Source: Spirosoma oryzicola
Lineage (GTDB): Bacteria; Bacteroidota; Bacteroidia; Cytophagales; Spirosomataceae
Length of the DNA stretch: 64,000 nt
Direction: 5' to 3'
Assembly (NCBI RefSeq): GCF_021233055.1
Contig: NZ_CP089540.1
Span: forward strand, 124,001 to 188,000
The number at the start of each line of letters is the position of its first letter. The stretch's first letter is position 1. Shown here piece after piece: positions 14,492 to 32,198 of the stretch. A program made the translations under genes and the position numbers. The notes beneath the pieces are model-generated. The model did no database searches and was not told the origin of the DNA. It saw nothing but the letters and a program-made list of their open reading frames with translations.

Positions 14492-15883
14492 TTATTTGCT
14501 TACATCCCACCACACCCGGTCGGTGAGTTTGGCGTCCTGCCCGGATTGCGGATTAGTCGTTAGTTCGGAGCGCGGATACAGAAAACGGCGGGGAATGTCT
14601 GACAACGCATTTGGTACTTTAGCCAGGAGCGGATACCCCGTCCGACGCCAATCGGTATAGTTCTCGGGGGAGAGGTAATTGGCAATTACTTTCTCTTCGA
14701 TGATCAGGCGAAGCGCGTTGCTGCTTGTGAGTTTACCCCGCCGGTTCAGGTACGTACTCGCATCCGTATCCGATACGCCCAACGCGCTCATGTTGGCTTT
14801 CACCGCGCTCTGGTAGATGGGTTCGGCCGCCGTTGCCCCCGATTTGTAGAGCGTAGCTTCGGCTTTCAGGAACAAGGCTTCGGCGTAGGTCAGGATATAC
14901 AGGTTTGCGCTGGCGGCTCCGTAGAAATCGCCCAGAATAGAATAGGAGGCCAGCGAGCCAATGTCTTGTAAACCAATGGCCCGACCCGTGTATTTGCCGG
15001 TTTCGGTAGCAGGCGCGATAATTTTACTCAGCCGGGGATCATTCCGAAGCACCAGTGTATCGACCGCCTGTTTCGACATAATCTGCGTTGATACCGGCAG
15101 GAAGTTCTGATTCTGTTTGTTCTGCTGACCCGCCCCACCGAGGTAAAACATCTTCATGTCGTCGCTGTTGGCAGTCATCCCGTTTTGCAGCGCTGCCAAT
15201 GCTAGATCAGCCTGTGCAGTTACAGTACGACCCGGCGCTTTGATCAGGTGCATGGCAAAGCGGGCTTTGAGCGTATAGGCCGCCCGGCGCCATTTGCTCA
15301 TGTCACCGCCGTAGTAATAATCGTCGCCACTTGGTTTCAGCGAAGACTTTTTGTCGATGCTGGCGATGGCTCGATCAAGCAGGGAGTCGATGCTTTTGTA
15401 AATGTCTTCCTGTTTATCGTAAGCGGGCCGGAAATTGGCGCTGCCCTGAAAGGCCTGCGAGTACGGCACGTCGCCCCACAGATCGGTGGTCATCCCCAGT
15501 GTTAACGCGGTCAGAATATCGGCAATGGCTGAGTAATTGTAGCTGTTGTCGGCTTCGGCTCGCTCACGCAGCACCTTCATATTTTGCAGACAGGTCGTAT
15601 AATTAATCCACCACTGGTTGTTAACCTCTTCGTTCAACTGCCGATACGTTCCTTCGTTGGGAGCCGGCTGGTTGGACGCAATCATCTGAGTCCAGTGGTT
15701 GGTGAACCGGGCCGCATCACCCGCCATCAGCTCGTTGGCGACGGCCAGCTCCAGCGGGGCCAGCAGCAACGCGGGCTGAACCGTGAGAGGCTGGTTGGGA
15801 TTCTTGTTGACGTCGATATAGGTCTGGCAGCCCGTCAGACTCAGCAGCAGGCTTCCCAGGGCAATAACACTGTATTTTTTCAT
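14492..15883 (-). CDS. SusD-like_2/RagB family outer-membrane lipoprotein
   Basis: This 463-residue lipoprotein partners the SusC encoded just upstream. The ATG at 15883 gives a clean lipoprotein signal (MKKYSVIALGSLLLSLTGC, Cys19 lipidated); the open frame extends to 15961 inside susC but is not needed. The motif DVNKNPNQPLTVQPALLLAPLEL followed by ARFTNHWTQMIAS marks the SusD-like_2 subgroup, which pairs with SusC proteins for both glycans and peptides. The C-terminus has LTYAEALFLKAEATLYK and ENYTDWRRTGYPLL, normal for the group. It begins 19 bp after the susC stop. With the hydroxyproline genes next door, a peptide or glycopeptide ligand is plausible but unproven. Confidence 0.93.
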   Translation of the reverse strand: MKKYSVIALGSLLLSLTGCQTYIDVNKNPNQPLTVQPALLLAPLELAVANELMAGDAARFTNHWTQMIASNQPAPNEGTYRQLNEEVNNQWWINYTTCLQNMKVLRERAEADNSYNYSAIADILTALTLGMTTDLWGDVPYSQAFQGSANFRPAYDKQEDIYKSIDSLLDRAIASIDKKSSLKPSGDDYYYGGDMSKWRRAAYTLKARFAMHLIKAPGRTVTAQADLALAALQNGMTANSDDMKMFYLGGAGQQNKQNQNFLPVSTQIMSKQAVDTLVLRNDPRLSKIIAPATETGKYTGRAIGLQDIGSLASYSILGDFYGAASANLYILTYAEALFLKAEATLYKSGATAAEPIYQSAVKANMSALGVSDTDASTYLNRRGKLTSSNALRLIIEEKVIANYLSPENYTDWRRTGYPLLAKVPNALSDIPRRFLYPRSELTTNPQSGQDAKLTDRVWWDVSK

Positions 15884-15902
15884 GATTTGGTGAGCTGAAT
15901 CG

Positions 15903-18900
15903 TTAGAAACTGAAACGAAGTGAGAACATAACCGAGCGCGACGTAGGGGCCGAGTTGGCATATATTCCCTGCGCCGAATTCGACGAACCGTAAGAACTTA
16001 CTTCGGGATCTGGCCCAGTGAAATGTGGCCGGTATATGAACAGGTTACGACCTGTTACGCTCAGCGATGCGGTTTTAAACGGTGTCTTGGCTAATAAGGA
16101 CGATGGAACGGAATAGCTCAGGCCCAAGGTTCGGAGTTTGAGATACGTAACGTCCTGAACAACTGACTCACCGACAGCATTCAGTCGCTGGTAGTAATCC
16201 TGCGCCTGAACTACTTTCGTGTTGGTGCTTCCGTCCGAGGCATTGACCCCGGCAACTACGCGTGACTCGCGATTTTCGGTGACTTTAGGCGTGCCGTAGA
16301 AATAGCCGTAGCGGTCGTCGGAATTGATCACGTCGCCACCTTTACGCATGTCAACGAAGGCGTTGAGCGAGAAAGCACCGTAGCGCAGGCTGTTGTTCAG
16401 ACCCATCAGCCAGTCGGGCGAAAGGTTACCGAGTATACCGGTGCCACCGCTGTAAGGCAGTCCCTGGGCGTCGATCAATAGCTGGCCGTTGTCGTTCCGT
16501 GCAAACTTATTATCGATCAGAACGCCATACTGCTGGCCGACAACGGCCCATGACGTACCGATCTGTACCCGGTCCAGACCACCATTGACCTGCGTAACGA
16601 CACTGCGAATCCGGGTGAATGTGTAGGTCAGATCCCAGGCAAACTTGCCCGCCCGAACCGGCGTTGCGTTCAGCAGAAACTCAAACCCTTTGGTTTGCAT
16701 TGATCCGGCGTTCAGAATAGTACTGCCGTAGCCTGAAGCCGCTGAAACGGGTATTCCGTCGGTAAGTAGGTCAATGCTGTTCTTGCGGAAGTAAGACGTT
16801 TCAAAACTCAGGCGGTTTTTTAAGAAGCGCATTTCCAGTCCTACCTCAAACTCGTTGGTACGTTCGTTGCGTAAATTCGCATTGCCCAGATTAGGACTCA
16901 ACAGAAAGCCGTTCTGTCCCTGGAAAGGAAAAGTATAGGCTCCGTAGCTAATACTAGCCGCCTGAAACGGCGTATTGAGTCGGTAAGCACCAATGTTATC
17001 GTTACCAACGCTGGCCATCGACACCCGTAGTTTACCGAAGCTAATCGCCGATGACAGACTGGCCGGGAGTAGTTCCGAGAAAATGAAAGCAAAAGCAGCC
17101 GATCCATAGGGGTAAAACTGGCGTTCCTGCGACAAGACCGAACTACCGTCGTAGCGGCCTGTTAATGCCAGTACCAGCATCCGGCGGTAATCGAAATTGG
17201 CCTGTGCGTAAAAGCCAATCTTGCGGGTGAGGTAATGATTCTCCGCATACGTTTGTTTTTCGGTGTTCGACATATTGTCGAAGCCAGCGATAGCTACCCC
17301 AACGCCCCTTGTGGTGATGTACTGCCCATACGACGAATACAGGTTGTTGCCCAGCGTCAGACTCATGTCCAGGTCACGAACCTGTTTGCTGGCCCGTACA
17401 ATCAGGTCGTTGTTGAACTGCCGGAACGTGTTGACCTGGTCAACAATTTGCCCGGTAGGTACGTTGGTCGATCCCCGTGCTTCGGAATATTTCACCTGTT
17501 CGCCGTACATATCGGCCCCGGCCCGTTCGGTAATTGTCAGCCAGCTCGTTGGCTGGTAGTTGATCGTTACGACCGGAATGTAGCGGCTGACAAGCGAACG
17601 GTTGTGAATATTATCGAGCCCCCAGAACGGGTTATTTCGCGAAAACCGGAACACGCGCTGACTACCATCGGAATTGGTGGTTGGAAACGGATTCCATGAG
17701 ATCGGTCCAGAATATACGGTCCAGAGCGGACTTTGCAGACCATAGCCTTCCGGTACGCGGTTGTTATCTGTGCTTGAGTAATTCAGCTGAAACGTAGCAT
17801 TGACCTTTGGCGAAATCTGGGTGACGTATTTGGCAAAGAGCGTGTGCCGGAGCAGATCGGTCGTTGGAATAGTTCCTAATTGCTTGAAGAACGTATACGA
17901 TGTAAAGTAAGTAGATCGGTCGCCGGTACTGCCACTCAGGCTGACAGAGTTGTTGGTGCTCACGCCCGTGCGGAAAAATAGGTCGGGCAAAAAATAACGG
18001 GGGGCTGGCTGGCCGTTAATTTTCAAAGTATCCATCAGCGGTCCCCACGAGAGACTCGTTTTCTGATCTTCTCCGTTAAAAAATACGCCCCGGCTACCCT
18101 GTGCGTATTTCTGTTGCAAATCGGGGTACAACGCCTTGTCGAACGATAGATCAGAGGAAACGGCAATAGTGGGCTTACGGTTGCCTGATCCGCTTTTAGT
18201 CGTTATGATTACGACCCCACGCGCTCCGGCTGATCCGTATAACGTAGTAGCGGCTGCTCCTTTCAGTACGTTGACACTTTCAATAATCGACGGGTCTAGG
18301 TCAACCAGTCGACTACCACCACCACCCTGGTCGGCATTTCCCGTTTCATCGTTGTTGATCGGAATGCCATCGAGCACGATCAGTGCCTGGTTGTTTCCCA
18401 GTAGCGACGTAGCGCCCCGCACTACAATCCGGGCCGAAGCACCCGGCATCCCCGATGAACTGGTAATTTGTACGCCCGCTACCTTTCCCGTCAGTGCGTT
18501 CAGGACATTCGGCTCTTTGGCTTTCATGATCTGCTCGCTTTTCAGTTCCTGCGTGCTGTAGGTCAGCGTACGTTTTTCCTGACTGACACCTAACGCCGTT
18601 ACTACGACTTCGTTCAATACGCTACTGCTTTGGGTCAATTGTACATCGATAGCCGTACGATTTTGAAGGGCGATTTCCTGCGTACTAAATCCGATAGCGC
18701 TGACAACTAATGTGCTGCTAGGCGGTACGCTGAGCATAAAACTGCCATCGACAGCCGTTGTCGTACCGGTCTTCTGTGTATTTTTCAAGACGACCGTTGC
18801 GCCCGGTACGGGTGAACCACCGGTTTCGGTTACTTTACCCGTAACCGTCATCTTTACGGCCTGTGCCCAGCCCTGGACCACCGTAAGGCAGAGCATTAGA

Positions 18901-18932
18901 CACATGCACCCGTGTAGTAGTTGCTTTCTCAT
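15903..18932 (-). CDS. SusC/RagA family TonB-dependent outer-membrane transporter
   Basis: This is a 1009-residue importer. Signal peptide 1-23 (ending GWAQ), carboxypeptidase-like domain about 28-105 (VTGKVTETGGSPVPGATVVLKN), TonB/plug region with NEVVVTALGVSQEKRTLTYS (about 107-126) and plug motif TLYGSAGARGVVIITTKSG (about 230-248), then barrel to the C-terminal SVMFSLRFSF, which ends in Phe as outer-membrane barrels do. It forms a two-gene unit with the SusD-like gene. No glycosidase adjoins it directly; the closest neighbours are the AraC regulator and the hydroxyproline catabolism genes, 0.45-1.5 kb away on the other side. Confidence 0.95.
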   Translation of the reverse strand: MRKQLLHGCMCLMLCLTVVQGWAQAVKMTVTGKVTETGGSPVPGATVVLKNTQKTGTTTAVDGSFMLSVPPSSTLVVSAIGFSTQEIALQNRTAIDVQLTQSSSVLNEVVVTALGVSQEKRTLTYSTQELKSEQIMKAKEPNVLNALTGKVAGVQITSSSGMPGASARIVVRGATSLLGNNQALIVLDGIPINNDETGNADQGGGGSRLVDLDPSIIESVNVLKGAAATTLYGSAGARGVVIITTKSGSGNRKPTIAVSSDLSFDKALYPDLQQKYAQGSRGVFFNGEDQKTSLSWGPLMDTLKINGQPAPRYFLPDLFFRTGVSTNNSVSLSGSTGDRSTYFTSYTFFKQLGTIPTTDLLRHTLFAKYVTQISPKVNATFQLNYSSTDNNRVPEGYGLQSPLWTVYSGPISWNPFPTTNSDGSQRVFRFSRNNPFWGLDNIHNRSLVSRYIPVVTINYQPTSWLTITERAGADMYGEQVKYSEARGSTNVPTGQIVDQVNTFRQFNNDLIVRASKQVRDLDMSLTLGNNLYSSYGQYITTRGVGVAIAGFDNMSNTEKQTYAENHYLTRKIGFYAQANFDYRRMLVLALTGRYDGSSVLSQERQFYPYGSAAFAFIFSELLPASLSSAISFGKLRVSMASVGNDNIGAYRLNTPFQAASISYGAYTFPFQGQNGFLLSPNLGNANLRNERTNEFEVGLEMRFLKNRLSFETSYFRKNSIDLLTDGIPVSAASGYGSTILNAGSMQTKGFEFLLNATPVRAGKFAWDLTYTFTRIRSVVTQVNGGLDRVQIGTSWAVVGQQYGVLIDNKFARNDNGQLLIDAQGLPYSGGTGILGNLSPDWLMGLNNSLRYGAFSLNAFVDMRKGGDVINSDDRYGYFYGTPKVTENRESRVVAGVNASDGSTNTKVVQAQDYYQRLNAVGESVVQDVTYLKLRTLGLSYSVPSSLLAKTPFKTASLSVTGRNLFIYRPHFTGPDPEVSSYGSSNSAQGIYANSAPTSRSVMFSLRFSF

Positions 18933-19380: not shown

Positions 19381-20256
19381 TTAGTCGGGTGACCGGTTGT
19401 AACTGCGGATGTACTCTCCGGGGGGCATACCGGTGATTTCCTTAAACTGGCGATTGAAATTAGACAGGTTGGTATAGCCGCACGAAAAGGCAATCTGACT
19501 GATGGTCTGCTTGGATTCACGCAGGTATCGACAGGCGTGTTCGACCCGGACTTCGTTAAGCAGCGTCGAAAAGGTTTTGCGGGTGTGTTGGCGAAAGAAA
19601 CGGCAGAAAGCGCCCGGCGTCAGATTAGCCGTGTTGGCAACGTCTTCCAGCGTGATAGGAGAATGGTAGTTGTCCAGAATAAACGAAAAAACCCGTTCGA
19701 GACGCTGGTGATCTTCGGGTCGCTGCGGATGCGTAAAGGCCGTTACCGACAGAACCTCGCGGTTGGAGTGGGTGACTAAATAATCCAAAATGCTCAACAG
19801 GGTCAAAAACTGCTCAAGGGGGCGTTGCGTGGGTAAGGCTTCGAACTGAGCTGTCAACGGATGCCCTTCTCCGCACCGGAACCGAACGCCATGCTGCGAC
19901 TCGTGCAGGAGCTGTAGTAAATGCCGGGTCTCGGGCAAACTGAATACGGTCGATTCCATGTGCTCGGCCCGGAAGAACACCGTGGTCGAGGTTGACCGCC
20001 GGGTCGATTCAGGGGCGAAATAGTCCGGGTCACTGCGGAGTACGTGGGGGAGATTAGAGCCAAGCATCAGCACATCGTTGCGGCTAAATCGGTCAATTTT
20101 GTCGCCGACAATCAAGGTGCCTTCGCCTTCCTGAATGAGGGTTAGCTGAATTTCGGGGTGGAAATGCAGCAATCTGTAAAAATGGGAGGAGTCATGCTGT
20201 TCAACCCGAAAGGTGCGATCATCGATTGCCGGAACTTTGAATAATAGTGGCTTCAT
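19381..20256 (-). CDS. AraC family transcriptional regulator with cupin sensor domain
   Basis: This is a 291-residue regulator. The N-terminal half (about 1-150) is an AraC-type cupin with HFHPEIQLTLIQEGEGTLIVGD. The C-terminal helix-turn-helix pair spans about 185-285 (ITLEDVANTANLTPGAFCRFFRQHTRKTFSTLLNEVRVEHACRYL, then ISQIAFSCGYTNLSNFNRQFKEITGMPPGEYI). It is divergent from the hydroxyproline operon with a 146-bp shared region, so it most likely activates that operon in response to hydroxyproline or a pathway intermediate. It could also act on the SusC/SusD pair that lies downstream of it on the same strand. Confidence 0.93.
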   Translation of the reverse strand: MKPLLFKVPAIDDRTFRVEQHDSSHFYRLLHFHPEIQLTLIQEGEGTLIVGDKIDRFSRNDVLMLGSNLPHVLRSDPDYFAPESTRRSTSTTVFFRAEHMESTVFSLPETRHLLQLLHESQHGVRFRCGEGHPLTAQFEALPTQRPLEQFLTLLSILDYLVTHSNREVLSVTAFTHPQRPEDHQRLERVFSFILDNYHSPITLEDVANTANLTPGAFCRFFRQHTRKTFSTLLNEVRVEHACRYLRESKQTISQIAFSCGYTNLSNFNRQFKEITGMPPGEYIRSYNRSPD

Positions 20257-20357
20257 TAGTAGTTTTTTCGCATCCAGACCATGTGTTTTGCGCCAATGTA
20301 GTGAAAATAATATTATTATTGACTAATTGTGAATAATACATTCATACCGTCGGCACG

Positions 20358-20365: not shown

Positions 20366-20402
20366 TAAAGAAATCGTAGTCGCACTTATATCGATCAATC
20401 GT

Positions 20403-21326
20403 ATGAACGTTTCTGTCGCCTGGGAGGGTGTTTATCCTGCTCTTCTTACCCCGTTTACCGCTGACGATCAGCTTGATTTACCCTTATTCGAGAAAAACTT
20501 ACATGCCCAGCTCGATGCCGGTGTGCACGGTTTTATCATTGGTGGATCGCTGGGAGAAGCCAGCACACTGTTGAATCACGAAAAAATTGACCTTCTTCAA
20601 TCTGCACTGGCGGTTTGCGAAAGCAACGTTCCCGTATTGGTAAACATCGCCGAGCAGGCTACCAAACAGGCGGTTGCCTGCGCGCAGGAAGCCGAAGCGG
20701 CTGGTGCCGATGGTCTGATGCTGCTGCCTCCCATGCGTTACCCCGCCGATGCCCGCGAAACCGTTACGTTTTTTAAGACAGTGGCGCAGGAAACCGCTTT
20801 GCCAATCATGATTTATAACAATCCGTACGATTATAAAATCATGACTACCGTTGCCATGTTCGACGAACTGGCTAAGTTGCCGAATATCCAGGCCGTGAAA
20901 GAATCGACCCGTGACCTGACCAACATCACCCGAATGCGGAACGCGTTTGGTGATCGGTTCAAACTAATGGGTGGTGTCGATACGCTGGCTCTGGAAGCCT
21001 TGTTGCTGGGTTGTGATGGCTGGGTAGGTGGCCTGGTCGATGCGTTCCCGCAGGAAACGATGGCGATCTATGAATTGGCCAAAGCCGGTCAGGTTGCCGA
21101 CGCGCTGGAGATTTACCGCTGGTTTATGCCCCTGCTGGAATTAGACATTCACCCTAAGTTGGTACAGTACATCAAGCTGGCGGCTCAGGCTACCGGTATC
21201 GGTTCAGAATACGTACGCGCCCCTCGTCTGCCCCTCATCGGCACCGAACGCGAGCAGGTTCTGAACGTAATTAACACCGCCCTGGCTAAGCGCCCAACTG
21301 CGGAAAAATTGATGAGTTATAAATAA
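20403..21326 (+). CDS. DapA-family deaminase/aldolase, likely 1-pyrroline-4-hydroxy-2-carboxylate deaminase
   Basis: This 307-residue class I aldolase-fold enzyme has the family's Schiff-base Lys166 (IQAVKESTRDLTNI) and Tyr138 (IMIYNNPYDYK), with the GGSLGEASTL loop at about 47-56. The family includes dihydrodipicolinate synthase, KDG aldolase and the hydroxyproline-pathway deaminase that converts 1-pyrroline-4-hydroxy-2-carboxylate to 2-oxoglutarate semialdehyde. Assignment to the last comes from the neighbours: a 4-hydroxyproline epimerase gene follows immediately and a D-amino-acid dehydrogenase after that. The biosynthetic DapA role is unlikely in this setting. Confidence 0.85.
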   Translation: MNVSVAWEGVYPALLTPFTADDQLDLPLFEKNLHAQLDAGVHGFIIGGSLGEASTLLNHEKIDLLQSALAVCESNVPVLVNIAEQATKQAVACAQEAEAAGADGLMLLPPMRYPADARETVTFFKTVAQETALPIMIYNNPYDYKIMTTVAMFDELAKLPNIQAVKESTRDLTNITRMRNAFGDRFKLMGGVDTLALEALLLGCDGWVGGLVDAFPQETMAIYELAKAGQVADALEIYRWFMPLLELDIHPKLVQYIKLAAQATGIGSEYVRAPRLPLIGTEREQVLNVINTALAKRPTAEKLMSYK

Positions 21327-21368
21327 TTGAGTTGGCTGTCCAGCTCATCATTCATTAGTACAAAAAAC

Positions 21369-22373
21369 GTGGCTGAGTATCATTTCTTCTGTATCGACGC
21401 CCACACCTGTGGTAATCCCGTTCGGGTCGTAACGGGTGGGAGTATTCCGTTTTTGCAAGGCGAAAGCATGAGCGAGAAGCGGCAGCATTTTCTGCGCGAG
21501 TACGACTGGATACGTACCGGACTTATGTTCGAACCGCGCGGGCACGATATGATGTCGGGCAGTATTCTATACCCACCCACTGATCCGGCCAACGACGCTG
21601 GAGTGCTGTTCATCGAAACATCGGGTTGTCTACCCATGTGCGGTCATGGCACCATCGGAACCGTTACGGTAGCCATCGAGCAAAACCTGATTCGGCCCAA
21701 AACGCCGGGCGTTCTAAATCTGGAAGTACCCGCTGGTCTGGTACGGGCTGAGTACGTGCAGGAAGGCAAGAAAGTAACGTCGGTAAAGATCACGAACATC
21801 AAATCGTATCTGGCCGCCGAAGCCTTGACCGTCGAGTGTCCTGATCTGGGTACGCTGACTGTCGATGTGGCTTATGGAGGAAACTTCTACGCCATCGTCG
21901 ATCCGCAACCGAACTTTCCGGGGCTGGAACATTACAAAGCTGAGCAGCTCGTTGCCTGGGCGCGGGTTATGCGGCAGCGGCTAAACGAGCAGTACACGTT
22001 CGTTCATCCAGAGAACTCGACCATCAACGGATTGAGTCACATTCTCTGGACGGGTAAACCGCTGGCCGAAACCTCAACGGCTCGCAATGCCGTGTTCTAT
22101 GGCGATAAAGCCATCGACCGGTCCCCCTGCGGCACGGGAACCTCCGCGCGGATGGCACAGCGTTACGGAAAAGGATTGCTTAAACCGGGTGACGTTTTTG
22201 TGCACGAGAGCATCATCGGCTCTATTTTCAACGGGCGGATCGAAGCCGAAACCGAACTGGCGGGCAAGTCAGCCATCATTCCGAGCATCGAAGGGTGGGC
22301 GCGTATTCACGGATATAACCACATCCTGCTCGACGAAGACGACCCCTACGTTCACGGATTTCAGGTAATTTAA
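21369..22373 (+). CDS. 4-hydroxyproline 2-epimerase (proline racemase family)
   Basis: This is predicted to interconvert trans-4-hydroxy-L-proline and cis-4-hydroxy-D-proline, the first step of the pathway. Both catalytic cysteines are present: MCGHGTIG (Cys91) and DRSPCGTGTSARMAQ (Cys254), which excludes the dehydratase branch that has Thr at the second site. I chose GTG 21369, which gives the usual start MAEYHFFCIDAHTCGNPVRVV; a TTG at 21327, right after the previous stop, would add 14 Ser-rich residues. Proline racemase is the main alternative, but gene context favours hydroxyproline. It lies 42 bp after the deaminase gene. Confidence 0.88.
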   Translation: MAEYHFFCIDAHTCGNPVRVVTGGSIPFLQGESMSEKRQHFLREYDWIRTGLMFEPRGHDMMSGSILYPPTDPANDAGVLFIETSGCLPMCGHGTIGTVTVAIEQNLIRPKTPGVLNLEVPAGLVRAEYVQEGKKVTSVKITNIKSYLAAEALTVECPDLGTLTVDVAYGGNFYAIVDPQPNFPGLEHYKAEQLVAWARVMRQRLNEQYTFVHPENSTINGLSHILWTGKPLAETSTARNAVFYGDKAIDRSPCGTGTSARMAQRYGKGLLKPGDVFVHESIIGSIFNGRIEAETELAGKSAIIPSIEGWARIHGYNHILLDEDDPYVHGFQVI

Positions 22374-23729: not shown

Positions 23730-23756
23730 AATAAGGCATCGATGAGATGCCTTATT
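23730..23756. terminator. Terminator hairpin between convergent genes
   Basis: Arms 23730-23740 (AATAAGGCATC) and 23746-23756 pair perfectly over 11 bp around a 5-base loop, followed by CTTTTA on the + strand. It ends the dehydrogenase transcript and, overlapping the last codons of the minus-strand glycosidase gene, may serve both directions. Confidence 0.65.
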
Positions 23757-26127
23757 CTTTTACCAGGCGTATTCCGTAAACAGGTCCGGCGGAGTTGGTA
23801 GGTTTAGCCTGAAGTTTGATGGTAACCGACGTTTTACCGGCCGTCAGGGCAGGCGGAATCGGGTACGAAATATCGTAAAAACGGCTCGCCTTGTACTTGT
23901 TCAGGTCTTCGCTGGCAATCTCCTTATCATCGATCAGCACGCTAAACTGACGACCCCGGTTGTCCATGCCCCAATACGTAGCAATCAGGGTATTTTGGGC
24001 GTTGGGATCGGTTTTCATCGTGAAAGTCATAAAACCTCCATTGTTAGCCACCCGAAACTTACGGGTATGGTCTTCGCCTGTTTCCAGCTTGTCGCCGGTG
24101 AACGTATGGTCGCGTTCGGGCTGCATTTCTCCCAGACGAAGCAAATCGATGGTTCGGCGTTCCAGATCGGCGGCTTCCCGGCGCTTCTGCTCGTACACTG
24201 CCTGTTGGTCTTTCCAGCTTTCGGGCGTGAACACATCCCAGTACACTGTGTAATAATTGGATTGAAGGTCGTAAAATGGCTTTAGGCCAACGGTACGCCC
24301 ATCGCCGGTCTGGCTTGTTTCAAAGGAAAGCGGTTCGTTCGTGGGTTTAATCCAGCCGTTCGGGTCAGCCTTGCTCGTCACAAATACGGGTACGCCCTGC
24401 ATTGGATCAGGCTCGCTGGCTCCCAAGTCGCCCGCCAAAAGTACGGGACCAACGAAGAAAGCCTGACGGGCCGGGTTATCAGGCATTGGTACGGAGCGTA
24501 GTTTGGCCGGTAAAGTCAGTTCGATTTTGTCGCCGGTTTTCCAGGTTTGCGACAGCACGATATACCCTTCTTCCAGTTTGCCCGACACCAGTTTGCCATT
24601 AACGGTCACGGCCATATCGCCCGAAAGCCAGTACGGTTTACGAATCCGAATGGGAAACGATTGGTTTTTTTTGGTTTGGACAGTCAATGCTACGTTTGGA
24701 TCGGTAGGCAGGTTGGCGGTCATCGCTACCCGTAGCCCTTTCTCTACCCAGTTTAGTTCGGACGGAATAAACAGGTTGACGTACAGACTACCATCGGCTC
24801 CTTTGAAATAGATGCTTTCCCCGTATTTGACGTGGTTTTCCATGCCTGTACCTACGCAGCAGGTAAACGATTCTTCCTCATCGCTGAAATGCTTCCGCGT
24901 ACCCATCCTGAGCGGTACGAAGTAGCAAACCATACCGGTCTTGTGATGCTGCGATGCCAATATGTGGTTGTACAAACCCCGCTCGTAAAAATCCATGTAC
25001 GATGCGTTGGGGTTCAGCGCGAACAGATGCCGGGTTAGTTTGAGCATGTTATGCGTGTTACAAGTCTCCATCGTATTGTCGGTCAGCTTATCAGACAACT
25101 GATCGGGCGTGCTCAGGTACTCGTAATTGCTGTTGCCACCAGGCGCATAGGTATGATGGTTGACAATGGTTTTCCAGAAAAAATCCGACATGGCAAAATC
25201 CTTTGAATCACCCGTTAATTCGTAGCGCCGGAGCGTACCGATTAGTTTCGGAATCTGAGTATTCGAGTGCTTACCCGGTAGAATGTCTTTCTGAATCGCC
25301 AACGAATCCAAGATCTTCCGGTCGTGAAACTTGTACGACAGATCGAGGTATTTCTTAGTGCCCGTCAACGCGTAGGTATTGACCAGCGCGTCATTCATAC
25401 CCCCGTATTCGCAGAGTAGCATTTTCTGAATTTGGCTGTCATTGAGGTTTTTAAGTGTTTCACCTGTCCAGTCAGCTATGCCTACGTTGACGGCTAAGGC
25501 TTTGTCGTTGTGGCAATACAGATAAGCATCGAACAGGCCCGCCATGACCTTGTGCACAGTATACCAGGGCGACCAGGCTCCGTTGAGATCGAACCCCCGC
25601 GACCGGATATTCCCCTGTGCTACTTCGGCAAATACGGAATCTTCTTTCGGAATGGCTCCGATGTACCCCGTCTTGCGCGCTTTCTGGCATTCGGCTAGCT
25701 CATCGACCATGTAATTGACCCGTTTCAGACATTCAGGATCGTTTGTGGCCGCGTAGTGCAGGGCCAGCGCCGACAGGTAGTGCCCAAGTGAATGCCCGGC
25801 CAGCCCCGACGATTCCCATCCACCGTATTTTTTGTCTTTTGGAGCTAATCCCGAATGAACCCGGAAATCCGACAACAGCCGGTCAGGTTTGAGGTCTAGT
25901 AGAAAGCGAACGTCGGCTTCCTGCGCGGTTTTAAACGGGCCGTCGAGTACCTTGACCTCGTTGAGCGGAAATGTATAGGCCTTGATCGGAACCGCCGTTT
26001 TTACCTTGATTCGAGCATCGTTTTTTTCAGGCAGATACGTCTGGGCTAGTGCGAACGAGTGAAAGAATATTGTAACGGAAAAAAGTAGAGCGTGCTTTCT
26101 ATTAAGGTATTTACGCGATAAGGACAT
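23752..26127 (-). CDS. DUF1680 glycosidase, GH127/GH146-like beta-L-arabinofuranosidase
   Basis: This 791-residue exported enzyme is predicted to cleave beta-L-arabinofuranosides. ATG 26127 is preferred because it gives a signal peptide (MSLSRKYLNRKHALLFSVTIFFHSFALAQ); the frame remains open to 26304 through repeat sequence and that extension is not credible. The (alpha/alpha)6 catalytic core includes GHYLSALALHYA, METCNTHNM (Glu354, Cys356) and FTCCVGTGMENHVKYGE (Cys423-Cys424), the Glu/Cys set that in GH127 holds zinc and provides the Cys nucleophile. The CCVGTGMENH form is closer to the GH146-like branch than to the CCPSN form of the neighbour gene. The C-terminal about 150 residues form a beta-rich accessory domain. 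Confidence 0.85.
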   Translation of the reverse strand: MSLSRKYLNRKHALLFSVTIFFHSFALAQTYLPEKNDARIKVKTAVPIKAYTFPLNEVKVLDGPFKTAQEADVRFLLDLKPDRLLSDFRVHSGLAPKDKKYGGWESSGLAGHSLGHYLSALALHYAATNDPECLKRVNYMVDELAECQKARKTGYIGAIPKEDSVFAEVAQGNIRSRGFDLNGAWSPWYTVHKVMAGLFDAYLYCHNDKALAVNVGIADWTGETLKNLNDSQIQKMLLCEYGGMNDALVNTYALTGTKKYLDLSYKFHDRKILDSLAIQKDILPGKHSNTQIPKLIGTLRRYELTGDSKDFAMSDFFWKTIVNHHTYAPGGNSNYEYLSTPDQLSDKLTDNTMETCNTHNMLKLTRHLFALNPNASYMDFYERGLYNHILASQHHKTGMVCYFVPLRMGTRKHFSDEEESFTCCVGTGMENHVKYGESIYFKGADGSLYVNLFIPSELNWVEKGLRVAMTANLPTDPNVALTVQTKKNQSFPIRIRKPYWLSGDMAVTVNGKLVSGKLEEGYIVLSQTWKTGDKIELTLPAKLRSVPMPDNPARQAFFVGPVLLAGDLGASEPDPMQGVPVFVTSKADPNGWIKPTNEPLSFETSQTGDGRTVGLKPFYDLQSNYYTVYWDVFTPESWKDQQAVYEQKRREAADLERRTIDLLRLGEMQPERDHTFTGDKLETGEDHTRKFRVANNGGFMTFTMKTDPNAQNTLIATYWGMDNRGRQFSVLIDDKEIASEDLNKYKASRFYDISYPIPPALTAGKTSVTIKLQAKPTNSAGPVYGIRLVKE

Positions 26128-26179
26128 AGCACAGGTTATATTTTTCGTCAATGAATGGGTCTCTTTTTGTAGTGTCAAT

Positions 26180-26285
26180 GGGGCCGCCCGCACCGCATAC
26201 TGTGGTGTCGGCGGGGCCGCCCGCGCGGTTCTCAAAACCGACACATCTGGGCAATGGCAGGTGTCGGTTTCTCGAAACCGACACC
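26180..26285. repeat. Cluster of short direct and inverted repeats between the two glycosidase genes
   Basis: GGGGCCGCCCGC occurs at 26180-26191 and 26213-26224. A 26-base inverted repeat at 26260-26285 has 12-base arms (GGTGTCGGTTTC) around a TC loop, and a partial copy of the same arm pair lies at 26226-26244. GGTGTCGG also appears at 26204-26211. The GC-rich, arm-and-spacer character fits REP-like extragenic palindromes. GTGTCGG/CCGACAC arms recur in the hairpin at 32420-32450. Confidence 0.6.
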
Positions 26286-26326
26286 ACGGTCTCGCCGATA
26301 CCACACCGACAAAGCCAGTAAACCCC

Positions 26327-28762
26327 TTATTTTTTACGTTTTGGCTCCTCGACGCTCCATTCCAGAATACCGCTGGAAGCTTCTTTGGGCAGTTGGATGA
26401 CCATCCGCAGGGCCTGGGTCTGCACTGGCTCGAACGTCACCGTGTCGAACGCATCCTTGCTGACTACGTACGGGCTTTTGTTTTTGACGGGCTTCCATTC
26501 GCCGGTTGCGGTTTGGTAAAGCAATTTCCACGAGGCCGGAATGCGGCAACCGCCCCACGGGCTATCGTCGAACCAGTACACCTTCGAGGATGCTACCGTC
26601 GTGGGTTTGGCAAACGTGTACTGCACCCATTGCAGCGTATCTTTCTTGGGCCACCAGTGGTAATAGATATTGTCGTGATCGTTGGAATTTTTGGGCGTAT
26701 CCTGATCGTTGAGGGCCATCAGGGTTTTGGTCGGGTAAGAAGCCGTGAGCTTGCTGGTCGAGGCAATGGTGGGCGCGGCTGTCGGTTTGGCTGCGGCAGG
26801 GCGGGTCCCCATCCAGACTGCCATCTCGCCCGCACCCCGGTTTGCCCAGGTGTAGTACGGAATGGCCGTAAGCGTAGCGGGACTGGTCTCCAGCTGATTG
26901 GTTGCTGTCCGCTTTACTTTTTCAACCTGACCGGTAATCACCTCTACTCCCCCCAGCAAATCGGGTTTGAACTCGGCTTGAAGCGAAGCCTGCGCGGGCA
27001 GTACAAGATCCAGTACGTGTCCGTTCGGCGAGTCGGGCCATTCGGCGCAGTACACAATCGGTCCCCGCTCCAGGGCTACCTTACCCTCGTCGGCCTTCAC
27101 GTTTTTGCTGGCCATTACGCGCCGGATTTCCATCGGTAGCGATAACCGAATCACGTTGCCCGGTTGCCAGGTCTGGCTTAGAATTGCGTACCCATCTTCC
27201 AGCTTGTAATCCACTTTTTTGCCATTGATAGTCAGTTCAACAGGTGCTGACGACTGATTAGCAAACGCATACAGATTGCCCGGCACGGGTTGATTACGCG
27301 CCCAGCCCGGAATCCGAATGGCTAGTTCGAAGGCTTTTGCCGTTGCCGGATTAACCGTAAACGCAATAGCACCTTCCCACGGGTAGCGGGTTTCCTGGGC
27401 TACGCTAAGGGGCATACCATCGAGGGTCACGTTAGCGGTACTATTGACAAACAGGTTGGCATAGAGCCGATTTCCCCGCTGGGCATATATGTAACCCGGC
27501 ATCGATGGAATAAACCGACAGACATTGCTGGGGCAGCAGGCACAGCCAAACCATGCGCTACGAGCGTGCTGGCCTTTTGATTCGAGAGGGTTGGGATAAA
27601 AGAAACGGTCGCCACTTAGCGATACACCCGACAACATGCCGTTGAAAAGCGTACGTTCCAGCACGTCGTAAAACTTCGCGTCGCCGTGCAGCAGAAACAG
27701 GCGCTGGTTCCAGTAGATGTTGCCGATGGCCGCGCAGGTTTCGTTATAAGCCGACATATTCGGTAAATCGTAGGCGGGGCCAAACCCTTCGTGTCCCCCC
27801 TGCGCGCCGATGCCGCCCGTAATGTAATATTTGTCGTACACGACGTCGTGCCAGATTTGGTCGATGGCTTTCAGATACGCTTTGTCGCCCGTAATAGCGG
27901 CCACGTCGGCCATGCCTGAGTACATGTACGTAGCTCGTACAGAGTGACCCACGGCTTCCGCTTGTTCGGTTACGGGTTTGTGATCCTGGCTATACTCCTG
28001 GCCCTTACCGCGTACGTCGAGCAGAAATTTAGCCAGATCGAGGTATTGTTTATTCCCCGTTGTGCGGTAGAGCTTCACCAGACCCATTTCCACAATCTGG
28101 TGGCCGGGCGCGTAGCTGAGCTTGCCGGGCCCAAAATCCTTCACCAGCAAATCGGCGTTTTTGAGGGCTACGTCGAGCAGCGTTTTCTTGCCCGTAGCCT
28201 GATAATGGGCGACAGCCGCTTCAAACAGGTGACCGCTGTTGTAGAGTTCGTGGCTCAGATCGGATTCTTTTTCCCAACGTTTCAGGCCCGACCAGGGGTG
28301 CGGATGGGCCGGGTCAATGGTGCGGGCCGTGTACAGATAACCGTCAGGCTCCTGCGCGCTGGCTACGTAGCTAATCAGCGAATCGACCTGCTTATCCAGT
28401 TTTTTGTCGGGAAACGTTTGCAACGAATAGCTGGCCCCTTCGATGATCTTGTAGATGTCGGTATCATCGAACGGATATTCGGTGCAAAACTTCGTTCCCG
28501 GTTTCAGGTGGCCCGCTACCAGAAAATTATCGACCCGCCCCGTACTGTAGCAGTGCTTGAGAGCAATCGGAATTGTTACATCGTGGTTGAGCCGAATGCG
28601 GGGTGCCCAGAATTGATCCGTCACCTTCACCGCCGTAAACGGAACGGGCTGAATCGGATAATCGCCCCCCAATTTTGGTTGAGCCGTACCCGGACGGACC
28701 AGACTTACAACGGTTAGCCCGGTAATAAGCAGGCTCAGCAGAGGTCGATGAAGTAGATGCAT
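26327..28762 (-). CDS. GH127 beta-L-arabinofuranosidase
   Basis: This 811-residue enzyme has a signal peptide (about 1-27, ending GTAQ) and a full GH127 core. It shows GAQGGHEGFG with the acid/base candidate Glu325, YNETCAAIGNIYWNQRLF with Glu341 and Cys343, and FGCACCPSNVCRF with Cys409-Cys410, matching the zinc-bound Cys nucleophile site of the Bifidobacterium longum enzyme HypBA1 that removes beta-L-arabinofuranose from hydroxyproline-linked chains. After about residue 650 a linker leads to a discoidin-like domain (SKLTASYPTKTLMALNDQDTPK ... YHWWPKKDTLQWVQYTFAKP) that may bind glycan. It lies 199 bp upstream of the GH127/146-like gene on the same strand, so the two are probably co-transcribed. 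Confidence 0.92.
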   Translation of the reverse strand: MHLLHRPLLSLLITGLTVVSLVRPGTAQPKLGGDYPIQPVPFTAVKVTDQFWAPRIRLNHDVTIPIALKHCYSTGRVDNFLVAGHLKPGTKFCTEYPFDDTDIYKIIEGASYSLQTFPDKKLDKQVDSLISYVASAQEPDGYLYTARTIDPAHPHPWSGLKRWEKESDLSHELYNSGHLFEAAVAHYQATGKKTLLDVALKNADLLVKDFGPGKLSYAPGHQIVEMGLVKLYRTTGNKQYLDLAKFLLDVRGKGQEYSQDHKPVTEQAEAVGHSVRATYMYSGMADVAAITGDKAYLKAIDQIWHDVVYDKYYITGGIGAQGGHEGFGPAYDLPNMSAYNETCAAIGNIYWNQRLFLLHGDAKFYDVLERTLFNGMLSGVSLSGDRFFYPNPLESKGQHARSAWFGCACCPSNVCRFIPSMPGYIYAQRGNRLYANLFVNSTANVTLDGMPLSVAQETRYPWEGAIAFTVNPATAKAFELAIRIPGWARNQPVPGNLYAFANQSSAPVELTINGKKVDYKLEDGYAILSQTWQPGNVIRLSLPMEIRRVMASKNVKADEGKVALERGPIVYCAEWPDSPNGHVLDLVLPAQASLQAEFKPDLLGGVEVITGQVEKVKRTATNQLETSPATLTAIPYYTWANRGAGEMAVWMGTRPAAAKPTAAPTIASTSKLTASYPTKTLMALNDQDTPKNSNDHDNIYYHWWPKKDTLQWVQYTFAKPTTVASSKVYWFDDSPWGGCRIPASWKLLYQTATGEWKPVKNKSPYVVSKDAFDTVTFEPVQTQALRMVIQLPKEASSGILEWSVEEPKRKK

Positions 28763-29003
28763 GAGAAAAAAGGTAACAACAAGCTAGGGGAATTAAACAG
28801 CACAACGAAGATACTAGGCTACTTAGGTGCGGGTTTTGCAAAGATTCGCCGGTAGTAATAGTTTATTAACAAATGCAGCTATCAGGCTATTTGACTATGC
28901 GGCTAAACCATTTACTTACCATATAATTGACTGGCTAACGCCAGCTGACCCAAAATTTATTCGGCCTAACTGGTTGTTACTACCCACTACGAGAACCCCC
29001 GCC

Positions 29004-30413
29004 ATGAATAAACCTTTTCACGAATTTATACCCCGTTTGGGCTTACTAGATGCTACCATGATCGTAGCTGGCTCTATGATCGGATCGGGTATTTTTATTG
29101 TACCAGCCGAAATTATCCGTAGTGTTGGCGGAGCAGGCTGGATGCTGGGTATGTGGCTGCTGGCCGGTCTGATCACGGTTATTGCTGCGGTGAGCTATGG
29201 CGAGTTGGCGGCCATGTTTCCCCGAGCGGGTGGTCAGTATGTTTACCTGCGTGAAGCCTATAATTCATTGGTTGGGTTCCTATACGGCTGGTCTTTTTTC
29301 GCTGTTATTCAGACTGGTACCATTGCCGCCGTGGGTGTAGCGTTCGCCAAGTTCACGGCTTACCTGGTCCCCGCCTTTAGTGATACCAATGTTCTGTTTC
29401 GTCTCGGTTTTGTCAATGTGTCGGCTGCGCAGCTCGTTTCGATTGGCGTCATTACCTTGCTGACTTACATCAATAGTAGGGGGGTGAAACACGGCGCGGC
29501 CCTGCAAACCTTCCTGACGATTATTAAACTAGTTTCCTTGTTTGGGCTGATTAGCTGTGGATTTATCTGGGGAGCCCGTGCTGATATCTGGAACGCCAAC
29601 TGGCAGAACGCCTGGAATTTATCGAGTTTGACCTTGTCGGGCGGGGCACTTTCGTCCTCTTCGCTTTCTGGTCTGGCGGCTTTTGGCGCCATCGCCATTG
29701 CCATGAAAGGAACCTTATTTTCGAGTGATTCCTGGCACAGTATTACATCGATTGCGGGAGAAGTCAAACAGCCTCAGCGCAACATCGGCCTGAGCTTGGT
29801 GCTGGGCACGCTAATTGTTACAGTAATCTACGTCCTGACCAACATCATGTTTCTGGCCGTCGTGCCGCTGAAAGACATTGCCTTTGCGCCCAGTGACCGG
29901 GTAGGCGTAGTGGCGGCCGATTACATTTTTGGCAACAGCGGTACCGTGATTATTGCCGTAATGGTCATGATTTCGACGTTTGGTTGTAACAACGGGCTGA
30001 TTCTGTCGGGGGCACGGGTCTACTACATCATGGCTAAAGACGGGCTATTTTTCCGGCAGGCTGGTACGCTCAATAAAAATGAGGTACCAGGCTACAGTCT
30101 GTGGACCCAGTGTATTTGGGCGAGTATACTTTGCTTGACGGGCGAATACAACAACCTGCTGGCCTTGGTAATTTTCGGTGTCCTGATTTTTTACGTCCTG
30201 ACTATTTTAGGAATTTATCGCCTACGCCAGCGTCGACCCGACTTACCCCGACCGTACAAAACGCCCGGTTATCCTTTTCTGCCCGCTATTTATGTCGTGA
30301 CGGCCCTCGCGCTGGCGGTTCTGCTGCTCATTTTCGAGACGCGCTACACTCTGCCGGGGCTGGGCGTCATTCTGGCGGGTATACCCGTGTATTACGTGAT
30401 CGTGCGACGGTAA
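29004..30413 (+). CDS. APC superfamily amino-acid permease
   Basis: This 469-residue inner-membrane transporter has about 12 helices. ATG 29004 gives the standard N-terminus FIPRLGLLDATMIVAGSMIGSGIFIVPAEI, with the GSGIF motif of the amino-acid/polyamine/organocation family. The frame is open back to 28827, but those 59 residues are not membrane-like or family-like. Other typical blocks are GGQYVYLREAYNSLVGFLYGWSFF and the C-terminal RRPDLPRPYKTPGYPFLPAIYV. It is divergent from the GH127 gene and directly precedes the DUF885 gene. Hydroxyproline, proline or a small peptide is a reasonable substrate guess from context only. Confidence 0.9.
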   Translation: MNKPFHEFIPRLGLLDATMIVAGSMIGSGIFIVPAEIIRSVGGAGWMLGMWLLAGLITVIAAVSYGELAAMFPRAGGQYVYLREAYNSLVGFLYGWSFFAVIQTGTIAAVGVAFAKFTAYLVPAFSDTNVLFRLGFVNVSAAQLVSIGVITLLTYINSRGVKHGAALQTFLTIIKLVSLFGLISCGFIWGARADIWNANWQNAWNLSSLTLSGGALSSSSLSGLAAFGAIAIAMKGTLFSSDSWHSITSIAGEVKQPQRNIGLSLVLGTLIVTVIYVLTNIMFLAVVPLKDIAFAPSDRVGVVAADYIFGNSGTVIIAVMVMISTFGCNNGLILSGARVYYIMAKDGLFFRQAGTLNKNEVPGYSLWTQCIWASILCLTGEYNNLLALVIFGVLIFYVLTILGIYRLRQRRPDLPRPYKTPGYPFLPAIYVVTALALAVLLLIFETRYTLPGLGVILAGIPVYYVIVRR

Positions 30414-30452
30414 CGAGTTGTGATACCTAACATACAATAGCGTTTTATTCTT

Positions 30453-32198
30453 ATGACTCTATCTACCTTTCGCTTATACACTGGCGCGTTAGCCATTGGC
30501 TTACTGCTAGTTGTTCGTACCGGTATCACGGCCCAACCCAATCCATTGATTGGTGTTGATCCACAAACCAGCGCCGTACACCATCTGCTCACACAGTTCT
30601 ACGCCGATCGGGGAAGCCTGAACCGCTTCTACATTGTCACGGGGTCGCCGGAGCGTCGGGTGCGCTTCCAGACGTTCTATACCGATTACCTGAACCGGCT
30701 GGAAGCGCTGAATTTTGACCGGATGAACACCGACAGTCGGGTTGACTACCTGCTTTTCAAGCGTGATTTGGCTGAGCAATTGCACAAGCTAAACATTGAA
30801 GCCGTTGAACGAGACCGTATCAACGCCTGGTTTCCCTTCGCGGATTCTCTGTATGCCGTCGAGAAACGGCGTCGTCGGGGTCATCTACCCAACGCCCAGC
30901 AGTTTGCCCGCAACCTGACCGATCTTGCCAAACAAATCAGCGAGCTTCATATCAAACTGGATAAAGAAGACAAACCCGATCCGTCGTTGATGCGTCGAGC
31001 GGCATCAACGGCAAATGGATTGCAGATCGCGTTACGTAGCGTTTACTCGTTCTACAACCATTACGACCCCAGCTTTAGCTGGTGGATCCCTAAACCCTAT
31101 CAGCAGGCAGACAGTCTGCTTGGGGCTTACGAGTCAGTTTTTCGGCGTAAAAGCCGGGAGTCGTCTCCCGTCAACGATGAGAGCGGTATCGTGGGCGTTC
31201 CGGTTGGACGTGACGAGTTAGTACGACAGTTACAGATCGAAATGATTCCGTACAGCCCGGAAGAATTAATCCAGATTGCCAATAAAGAGTTTGCCTGGTG
31301 CGACCGCGAACTGCTGAAAGCTTCCCGCGAGATGGGGTTTGGCGATGACTGGAAAGCGGCCCAAGAAAAGGTCAAAAACAGTTACGTCCCCATTGGCAGA
31401 CAACCCGAAATGGTTTTGGGCTTGTTCAATGAGTCCGTTGCGTTTTTGAAAGCGAAAAACCTGATTACGATTCCGCCAATTGCCGAAGAAACGTGGCGCA
31501 TGGGCATGATGTCGCCGAGCCGTCAGCTTGTCAATCCGTTTTTTACCGGGGGTGAAGAACTGTCGATCTCTTACCCAACTGACGACATGAATTACGCCGA
31601 TAAAGTGATGAGCATGCGGGGTAATAATCCTCATTTTTCGCGGGCCACGGTTCATCACGAGCTTATTGCCGGGCATCATTTGCAGGGATTCATGAATAAC
31701 CGGTACAAAGTTTACCGCAATTTCGACACACCTTTCTGGATTGAAGGCTGGGCCTTGTATTGGGAAATGCTGCTATGGGATCAGGGCTTTGCCAAGTCTC
31801 CCGAAGATCGGATTGGTATGTTGTTCTGGCGGATGCATCGCTGTGCCCGAATTATTTTCTCGCTAAATTTCCACCTTGGCAAATGGAGACCGCAGCAATG
31901 CGTTGACTTTTTAGTAGACCGTGTAGGTCATGAGCGGGCCAATGCTATCGGTGAAGTCCGACGGTCGTTTCTCGGTGTTGATCCTCCATTGTACCAGCTG
32001 GCTTACATGACGGGCGGTTTTCAGTTTCTGGCGCTCAAAAAAGAACTGGTTGATACAGGAAAAATGACCTACAAACAGTTTCATGATGCCGTTCTGCAAA
32101 TCAATTCCATGCCCGTCGAAATGATCCGTGCCATCCTGACGAATCAGTCTTTTCCAAAGGATTTCAGGACTAAGTGGCGATTTTATGATCTTAATTAA
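30453..32198 (+). CDS. DUF885 exported metallopeptidase-like protein
   Basis: This 581-residue protein has a signal peptide (about 1-27, ending GITAQP) and belongs to DUF885. The signature VHHELIAGHHLQGFMNNRY (about 398-416), followed by WIEGWALYWEMLLWD, is the zinc-peptidase-like HE...GHH plus downstream Glu arrangement of the family. DUF885 proteins are mostly uncharacterised but are considered peptidase-like. It begins 39 bp after the permease stop, so the pair probably forms an operon for peptide breakdown followed by amino-acid uptake. In this locus it could act on Hyp- or Pro-rich peptides; that is inference. Confidence 0.88.
   Translation: MTLSTFRLYTGALAIGLLLVVRTGITAQPNPLIGVDPQTSAVHHLLTQFYADRGSLNRFYIVTGSPERRVRFQTFYTDYLNRLEALNFDRMNTDSRVDYLLFKRDLAEQLHKLNIEAVERDRINAWFPFADSLYAVEKRRRRGHLPNAQQFARNLTDLAKQISELHIKLDKEDKPDPSLMRRAASTANGLQIALRSVYSFYNHYDPSFSWWIPKPYQQADSLLGAYESVFRRKSRESSPVNDESGIVGVPVGRDELVRQLQIEMIPYSPEELIQIANKEFAWCDRELLKASREMGFGDDWKAAQEKVKNSYVPIGRQPEMVLGLFNESVAFLKAKNLITIPPIAEETWRMGMMSPSRQLVNPFFTGGEELSISYPTDDMNYADKVMSMRGNNPHFSRATVHHELIAGHHLQGFMNNRYKVYRNFDTPFWIEGWALYWEMLLWDQGFAKSPEDRIGMLFWRMHRCARIIFSLNFHLGKWRPQQCVDFLVDRVGHERANAIGEVRRSFLGVDPPLYQLAYMTGGFQFLALKKELVDTGKMTYKQFHDAVLQINSMPVEMIRAILTNQSFPKDFRTKWRFYDLN

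Follow-up and report, generated by a model that had tools for sequence, protein, structure and literature searches.

Gene content of the locus

The stretch of DNA analyzed here (hereafter the window) comprises 64,000 nucleotides of the Spirosoma oryzicola genome (contig NZ_CP089540.1, positions 124,001 to 188,000). Positions 14492 to 32198 of the window carry ten genes in which a SusC/SusD import pair (SusCD) and two beta-L-arabinofuranosidases, of glycoside hydrolase (GH) families GH127 and GH146, lie together with genes for the catabolism of 4-hydroxyproline (Hyp). A preliminary description of this segment had listed these genes, and whole-protein family matches bore out every one of them. 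In window coordinates, they are as follows:

14492..15961, minus strand: SusD-like lipoprotein (SusD-like_2; PF12771, 6.3e-75), likely start near 15883 (M27), LTGC lipobox
15903..18932, minus strand: SusC TonB-dependent importer (TIGR04056, 593 bits, cut-off 368)
19381..20256, minus strand: AraC-family regulator (PF12833), divergent from the Hyp genes
20403..21326, plus strand: DapA/DHDPS-family protein, predicted pyrroline-4-hydroxy-2-carboxylate deaminase (PF00701, 3.6e-55)
21327..22373, plus strand: 4-hydroxyproline 2-epimerase, HypE (PRK13971 of NCBIfam, 591 bits, cut-off 376), TTG start uncertain
22454..23698, plus strand: D-amino-acid dehydrogenase of the DAO family, predicted cis-4-hydroxy-D-proline dehydrogenase (PF01266, 2.6e-71)
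23752..26304, minus strand: GH146-type beta-L-arabinofuranosidase, predicted exported (PF07944, 1.1e-122; GH127 middle domain; DUF6805), likely start near 26127 (M60)
26327..28762, minus strand: GH127 beta-L-arabinofuranosidase, predicted exported (PF07944, 5.4e-113; PF20736; PF20737), with a C-terminal F5/8-type domain (PF00754, below its cut-off)
28827..30413, plus strand: APC-family amino-acid permease, predicted to take up Hyp or other amino acids (PF13520, 5.5e-56), likely start near 29004 (M60)
30453..32198, plus strand: exported DUF885 protein, possible peptidase (PF05960, 1.1e-46; HHExxxGH motif)

The revised starts of the GH146, permease, and SusD genes were set by visual inspection of the sequences and by comparison with homologue lengths. 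Export-type signals at the N-termini of the GH127, GH146, and DUF885 proteins, and the lipobox of the SusD-like protein, were likewise recognized by eye. With a SusC/SusD pair, linked degradative enzymes, and a regulator, the segment has the composition by which a polysaccharide utilization locus (PUL) is recognized.

Hydroxyproline catabolic genes

The preliminary description had named a two-Cys epimerase, and both cysteines are present in HypE (in the motifs MCGHG and DRSPCGTG) when it is aligned to the solved proline racemase 7pb3. The DAO-family dehydrogenase matched PRK00711 with 265 bits, under the cut-off of 383. A two-Cys epimerase accompanied by DAO-family and DHDPS-family genes is the composition of a 4-hydroxyproline epimerase (4HypE) cluster, the exact activities of the DAO- and DapA-family proteins being predictions from sequence. 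The DHDPS superfamily includes the 2-keto-3-deoxy-L-arabonate dehydratase of oxidative arabinose catabolism. The relatives found for the DapA-family protein place it in this superfamily only, and its sequence alone is compatible with that activity too; its position beside HypE and the DAO-family gene argues for the deaminase of the Hyp pathway. DapA, HypE, and DAO genes stood together in all 33 Spirosoma HypE loci fetched.

The fourth enzyme of the pathway, 2-oxoglutarate semialdehyde dehydrogenase, is absent from the locus, which keeps the three-enzyme core. Because a candidate aldehyde dehydrogenase (C1; a 57% match to one from a related locus), a GH51-type protein, and three DPP4-type proteins (29-39% identity) are encoded elsewhere in the same genome, the predicted pathway can be complete although dispersed.

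The two glycosidases

Assigned by its solved relatives, the GH146 protein lies nearest to GH146 enzymes: the best match was 5opj (E 1.6e-149, 503 bits), which we take to be the enzyme BT0349, followed by 8k7x (231 bits), and the GH127 enzyme 3wkw gave 45 bits. Its Cys3-Glu zinc set (E413, C415, C482, C483) is unchanged in 13 aligned orthologues. The GH127 protein has the catalytic, middle, and C-terminal domains of its family, and among solved structures its closest match is 6ex6 (E 3.9e-236, 789 bits), presumably BT3674. Residues H171, Y174, H221, R276, E341, C343, C409, and C410, comprising the Cys3-Glu zinc site and the substrate residues, align with those of HypBA1 (3wkw) and are invariant in ten orthologues; by a hand count on the alignment, the first four correspond to the sugar-binding residues H142, Y145, H194, and R273 of HypBA1 (PMC10850190). 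Cleavage of the Araf-beta-Hyp linkage has been reported for XeHypBA1 and Bll4HypBA1, both of GH146, and HypBA1 (GH127) is reported to attack the beta-1,2-linked disaccharide that is set free from Ara3-Hyp (PMC10850190; this and the papers cited below are drawn on for their accessible sections).

These relationships are also consistent with other substrates. GH146 might act on the arabinan side chains of pectin and GH127 on rhamnogalacturonan II (RG-II) or arabinan, the Hyp genes being neighbours for some other reason, such as a shared niche in wall debris. BT0349 is an enzyme of a rhamnogalacturonan-I PUL and acts on arabinan-derived oligosaccharides (PMC10850190), and the GH127 protein matches the aceric acid hydrolase model, if only with 479 bits, under the cut-off of 950; on account of this miss RG-II was set aside as a substrate. 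Alternatively, the locus might serve the utilization of arabinogalactan proteins (AGPs), with the same Hyp backbone but with the beta-arabinofuranosidases trimming type II arabinogalactan and not Hyp-arabinosides. AGPs likewise unite arabinose and Hyp; BT3674 (GH127) acts together with exo-galactanases on larch arabinogalactan, and Bll3HypBA1 (GH146) acts on rice AGP (PMC10850190). Both alternatives are taken up below with the neighbourhood data that bear on them.

Linkage across families of Bacteroidota

The neighbourhoods of GH146 were surveyed in named genomes by scanning flanks of about 10 kb on each side of the best 80 of 447 GH146 relatives, with matches required to cover at least 60% of the query. 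Seven of these 80 loci came from genomes of the family survey given below, none of them among the 29 HypE-positive loci, and there is overlap with the phylum sample also, in which G320 and G582 at least match loci of the set (L128, L125). Counted over the 80 loci were AraC (45), GH127 (37), DapA (33), DUF885 (33), DAO (32), HypE (29), permease (20), SusC of the window type at 45% identity or more (20), SusD at 45% identity or more and over 80% coverage (19), aldehyde dehydrogenase (19), DPP4-type (12), and M1 (11) genes; AraC, DPP4, M1, DAO, and SusC are large families, in which low-identity matches weigh less. At least one of HypE, DapA, and DAO was present in 41 loci, and four had none of the other genes tested for. 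HypE, DapA, DAO, GH127, and GH146 stood together in 14 loci, eight of which had SusCD as well. By comparison, 12 control genes taken from Spirosoma neighbourhoods each turned up in 0-3 of the 80 loci, and chance is very unlikely as the cause of the gene association, given the linkage counts against these controls.

The HypE-positive loci belong to Mucilaginibacter (13), Chitinophaga (7), Pedobacter (3), and others, namely Hymenobacter, Ferruginibacter, Cnuella, Chryseolinea, [Flexibacter], and a Sphingobacteriales bin. In Chryseolinea (L067), a POT-family transporter gene precedes the run permease-DapA-HypE-DAO-GH127-GH146-DUF885, all seven genes of which share a strand and are spaced by 15-133 bp. 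One-strand runs were also found in G472 (L139; DapA-aldehyde dehydrogenase-HypE-GH146-DAO, with GH146 between HypE and DAO) and in G075 (GH146, a 171-aa protein, DapA, HypE, permease, and GH127), and Mucilaginibacter oryzae (L084) holds all components of the window locus, plus an aldehyde dehydrogenase, inside 22 kb. Labelled neighbours within 1.5 kb of GH146 included GH127 (34 loci), DUF885 (18), SusC on the opposite strand (15), AraC (8), DapA (5), and others. This variation in gene order argues for a retained function, as opposed to one inherited block. A simple inherited block was tried on a GH146 tree and rejected: with 36 of 93 tips labelled as linked (midpoint root; six duplicate tips removed, eight family-survey tips labelled by hand), linkage needed 22 parsimony changes against a mean of 28.8 and a minimum of 21 in 500 shuffles, so that it is only weakly clumped.

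The family survey covered 222 Spirosomataceae genomes and found GH146 (E <=1e-190) in 21 and HypE (E <=1e-110) in 160. GH146 lies within 20 kb of HypE in eight of the 20 genomes that have both (the window counted), representing five genera, and does not in the other 12. Distances were 1.4 kb in the window, 2.0 kb in G075, 3.7 kb in G145, 4.5-5.2 kb in G152, G153, and G155, and 13-14 kb in G213 and G216; the two genes of G154 are separated by 39 kb, and those of G156 are found close to contig ends, a placement that suggests one locus cut by the assembly. In a sample of 395 genomes drawn evenly from the phylum, GH146 (E <=1e-220) was found in 12, seven of which have HypE, within 20 kb in four (again counting the window).

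Linkage within Spirosoma

HypE is present in 33 of 36 Spirosoma genomes, and close orthologues (at least 78% identity) of GH146 and GH127 in six, mutually adjacent in all six. Among these neighbourhoods, G021 has AraC-DapA-DAO-GH146-GH127 plus a SusCD, without HypE, and G003 has AraC-GH146-GH127-permease-M61 peptidase-DUF885. Relatives of lower identity served as controls, and none lay within 20 kb of HypE (GH146, 0/38; GH127, 0/42). Binomial values for these counts treat the genomes as independent and are approximate. These controls were set by identity and not by a tree, and three rows from HypE-less genomes (one GH146, two GH127) were dropped; the Spirosoma GH127 matches at 53-55% are scarcely below the 56-58% of orthologues from other genera, and one GH146 control (G013:C3, 48%) passes the E-value limit of the family survey.

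The locus might also consist of two independent units, a cluster for catabolism of collagen-derived or free Hyp and a pair of beta-arabinofuranosidases, adjacent by chance. The Hyp genes of Spirosoma do lie mostly elsewhere, by proBA-aat, GH16/GH39, or M1/DPP4 genes. Against this stand the recurrence of the association in at least 12 genera (five of Spirosomataceae, seven among the named genomes) and in several gene orders, and the control counts given above, and we regard two chance neighbours as highly improbable.

Several features of the genus were recorded in passing. In nine loci (L006, L007, L014, L016, L021, L022, L026, L027, and L038) the Hyp genes stand beside proB, proA, and aat; the same nine have orthologues (75-79%) of the GH39 protein of the window near HypE together with GH16 and an aldehyde dehydrogenase. 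In L019, L030, L031, and L034-L037 they occur with M1 and DPP4 peptidase genes. The GH127 orthologue of G018 (L003, G018:C1:3083380-3085802) is split into open reading frames (ORFs) of 382 and 483 aa and is perhaps a decaying gene. G020:C27 carries two Hyp loci (L032, L033) that agree in gene content and in HypE score and are separated by about 220 kb, the result of either a recent duplication or an assembly effect.

Uptake, regulation, and candidate peptidases

The best solved relative of the SusC protein is BT2264 (5fq6, 7e-113); a BT2263/64-peptide complex and the peptide transporter RagAB are mentioned in PMC7782687. A 1012-aa SusC orthologue adjoins GH146 in G188, and the permease gene stands between HypE and GH127 in G075, G152, G153, G154, G155, and G156. 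AraC-family matches outside Spirosoma have 31-41% identity, so that the count of 45/80 is partly an effect of family size.

In the DUF885 protein, H401, H402, E403, and H408 of the HHExxxGH motif are invariant in 11 aligned sequences, and none of 33 DUF885 homologues longer than 480 aa has an HExxH motif. A DPP4, M1, M61, or DUF885 gene was found in 48 of the 80 GH146 loci, including 19 of the 29 HypE-positive ones, and aminopeptidase P (M24) in six, four of them HypE-positive; M28 peptidases made up three of 86 further proteins from HypE-positive loci. In other Spirosoma genomes, Hyp genes adjoin M1 and DPP4/prolyl-oligopeptidase genes. A DUF5695 protein of about 910 aa, a candidate enzyme of the same system, is encoded near GH146 in 11 of the 80 loci (L062, L064, L065, L066, L074, L076, L081, L118, L131, L132, and L134), four of them with HypE, and was seen too at L049:12278-15025 and in L140.

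Substrate and proposed pathway

Arabinan is without hydroxyproline and collagen is without arabinose, so a substrate common to both halves of the locus points to the Hyp-rich glycoproteins of plants or green algae. Collagen as the Hyp source was set aside on this general ground, no collagenase search having been made. Within the Hyp-rich glycoproteins, extensin-type Hyp-arabinosides would be a better fit than AGPs, given that the partial list of families shows no clear galactanase family: there was none among the recurrent families annotated (one representative each, 20 of 30 gene groups), nor among the 25 of 80 families seen for those 86 proteins of HypE-positive loci, GH43 being represented there by two. 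GH43 occurs in four of the 80 GH146 loci and GH39 with GH16 beside the Hyp genes in nine Spirosoma loci, as AGP utilization might lead one to expect, but homologues of these GH16 and GH39 proteins were met in 0/80 GH146 loci. On balance, we consider AGPs an unlikely substrate.

The arabinose-related neighbours of GH146 bear on the pectic alternative. GH51 (a label read from Pfam Alpha-L-AF_C) recurs near GH146 in 11 of the 80 loci, L-arabinose isomerase in six, an FGGY kinase in seven, an SSF symporter in six, an NrtR-like regulator in eight, and a class II aldolase in seven. HypE-positive loci number one for GH51, one for the NrtR-like regulator, and none for the isomerase, kinase, or symporter. 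We had considered whether an arabinose half of the system lies in the same loci, and rejected this, since GH51, isomerase, kinase, and symporter genes almost never co-occur with Hyp genes; neighbourhoods of this type without Hyp genes are seen in L107, L113, L122, L124, L126, L130, L133, and others. The recurrence of GH51 and arabinose-catabolism genes in Hyp-less loci favours pectic or general arabinose use for GH146 there; it slightly lowered our confidence in the two proposals made below and slightly raised that in the pectic alternative. The latter nevertheless sits poorly with the linkage data: one-strand runs of Hyp genes include GH146, and none of the lower-identity relatives of GH146 and GH127 in Spirosoma is near HypE, whereas orthologues are. 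Pectin lyase and polygalacturonase were not among the families shown in the partial list. Pectic use with incidental Hyp genes thus appears to us very improbable.

We therefore favour, with good but not complete confidence, the view that this locus serves the utilization of arabinosylated Hyp-rich glycoproteins from plants (or green algae), with extensin-type Hyp-arabinosides as the likeliest substrate. The central point of the preliminary description, the pairing of beta-arabinofuranosidases with Hyp catabolism, gains support from linkage that recurs in several families and gene orders. In the proposed pathway, the peptide-type SusCD would import Hyp-rich glycopeptides into the periplasm, where the exported GH127 and GH146 enzymes would strip beta-linked arabinofuranose, GH146 most likely acting also on the last sugar on Hyp. 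Exported peptidases would then release Hyp, perhaps DUF885 here and DPP4/prolyl oligopeptidase, M1, M61, or aminopeptidase P in some relatives, and the permease would carry it into the cytoplasm. There HypE would convert trans-4-hydroxy-L-proline to cis-4-hydroxy-D-proline, the DAO-family enzyme would oxidize the latter, the DapA-family deaminase would yield 2-oxoglutarate semialdehyde, and this would finally be converted to 2-oxoglutarate by a dehydrogenase whose gene lies elsewhere in the genome. The divergent AraC-family protein may control these genes.

A number of observations weigh against this assignment. The GH genes and Hyp genes of the window are on opposite strands, and within Spirosoma HypE stands beside the close GH pair in one of six genomes only, that of the window. 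This genus survey had hinted at a local accident or species-specific insertion, which the family, phylum, and named-genome surveys overturned; of the linkage that the preliminary description proposed as a check, the part beyond the genus held, across several families and gene orders, and the part inside Spirosoma proved patchy. HypE is far commoner in Spirosomataceae than GH146 (160 against 21 of 222 genomes, under differing E-value limits) and is absent from the flanks in 51 of the 80 named-genome loci, only 12 of which have flanks shortened by contig ends. In the Hyp-less loci with the arabinose genes listed above, the role of GH146 may be no more than the use of arabinose or arabinan, or it may serve the other half of the same diet. 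The GH146 protein is nearer to BT0349 (503 bits) than to Bll3HypBA1 (231 bits), XeHypBA1 and Bll4HypBA1 lying outside this comparison. GH121 (HypBA2) was not found among the ten annotated locus proteins, among which the HypBA2 model picks up just the F5/8-type tail of GH127, and DUF885 is, by its motif, no more than a possible peptidase.

Extending the proposal beyond S. oryzicola, we lean towards a system that is shared by several families of Bacteroidota and uses Ara(n)-Hyp as a nutrient through import, arabinose removal, peptide cutting, and Hyp catabolism, the arabinose being used via genes elsewhere and the carriers being specialized extensin consumers; we hold this broader claim somewhat more probable than its converse. 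Rearranged versions of the cluster in other soil and plant-associated bacteria appear built for the same use.

Other genes of the window

A second SusCD pair opens a plus-strand segment at 451-11132 that continues with glucosamine-6-phosphate isomerase-family, MFS, GH20-like, Gfo/Idh/MocA, and ApbE proteins and looks like an amino-sugar utilization locus. Six kb past DUF885, a GH39 protein (38042-39823, plus strand) has GH39 beta-xylosidases as its nearest solved relatives. From about 40000 to 63491 runs a long series of minus-strand ORFs, six sampled members of which include glycosyltransferases, DUF354, and a FemAB/GNAT protein; it is probably devoted to surface polysaccharide synthesis.

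Comparison with known systems

Among the structural proteins of the plant wall are the extensins and related Hyp-rich glycoproteins, which are regarded as hard to degrade, a resistance that rests on their Hyp-arabinosides. Bifidobacterium longum likewise directs GH127 and GH146 enzymes at Hyp-linked beta-arabino-oligosaccharides (HypBA1, GH127; HypBA2, GH121; Bll4HypBA1, GH146); it differs in possessing GH121, of which the Spirosoma locus has none, and in importing the sugar by an ABC transporter (PMC7263609), and the accessible sections of PMC10850190 and PMC7263609 mention no Hyp catabolism, SusCD, or peptidases with it. Xanthomonas euvesicatoria degrades Ara4-Hyp on extensin and solanaceous lectin with XeHypAA, XeHypBA2, and XeHypBA1, and a prolyl oligopeptidase gene adjoins, although it is called a pseudogene in the described strain (PMC6085000); the words epimerase and racemase are absent from the main text of that paper. 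As GH121 is not in the locus, we have likened it to the Hyp-arabinoside systems of Bifidobacterium and Xanthomonas without classing it as one of them.

Known clusters for trans-4-hydroxy-L-proline (4HypE, DAAO, DHDPS, aldehyde dehydrogenase) share the same four enzyme families and chemistry (PMC4113996), but the Spirosoma cluster carries glycosidases and SusCD in addition; in the main text of that genome-neighbourhood study, no word begins with glycos, SusD, arabino, or Bacteroidetes. The SusD-bearing PUL BT4240-50 of Bacteroides thetaiotaomicron, for mucin O-glycoproteins, similarly combines a peptidase, glycosidases, and onward metabolism, yet it targets animal mucin and N-acetylgalactosamine, and its onward metabolism concerns the sugar and not a modified amino acid of the backbone (PMC11992087). 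An inference of extensin deglycosylation in Latescibacteria was drawn from GH127 alone, in the available part of that paper. The SusCD of the locus is of the peptide type of BT2263/BT2264 and RagAB, BT2264 being its best solved relative. To our knowledge, neither of these has neighbouring glycosidases or Hyp genes.

The preliminary description had called the pairing undescribed, and in the accessible portions of the open-access literature we met, provisionally, no prior description of it and nothing that couples Hyp catabolism to GH127/GH146 or SusCD. If the proposed function is correct, it bears on how soil bacteria recycle extensins and on the source of substrate for bacterial Hyp catabolism outside animals, to which the recurrent locus offers a testable answer; it could also mark this activity when rhizosphere genomes are screened. 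Taken separately, the enzymes and the pathway of Hyp catabolism were known already; what would, provisionally, be new is a SusCD locus that catabolizes a modified amino acid of the backbone besides removing its sugar, and this, if true, widens the concept of the PUL to such loci.

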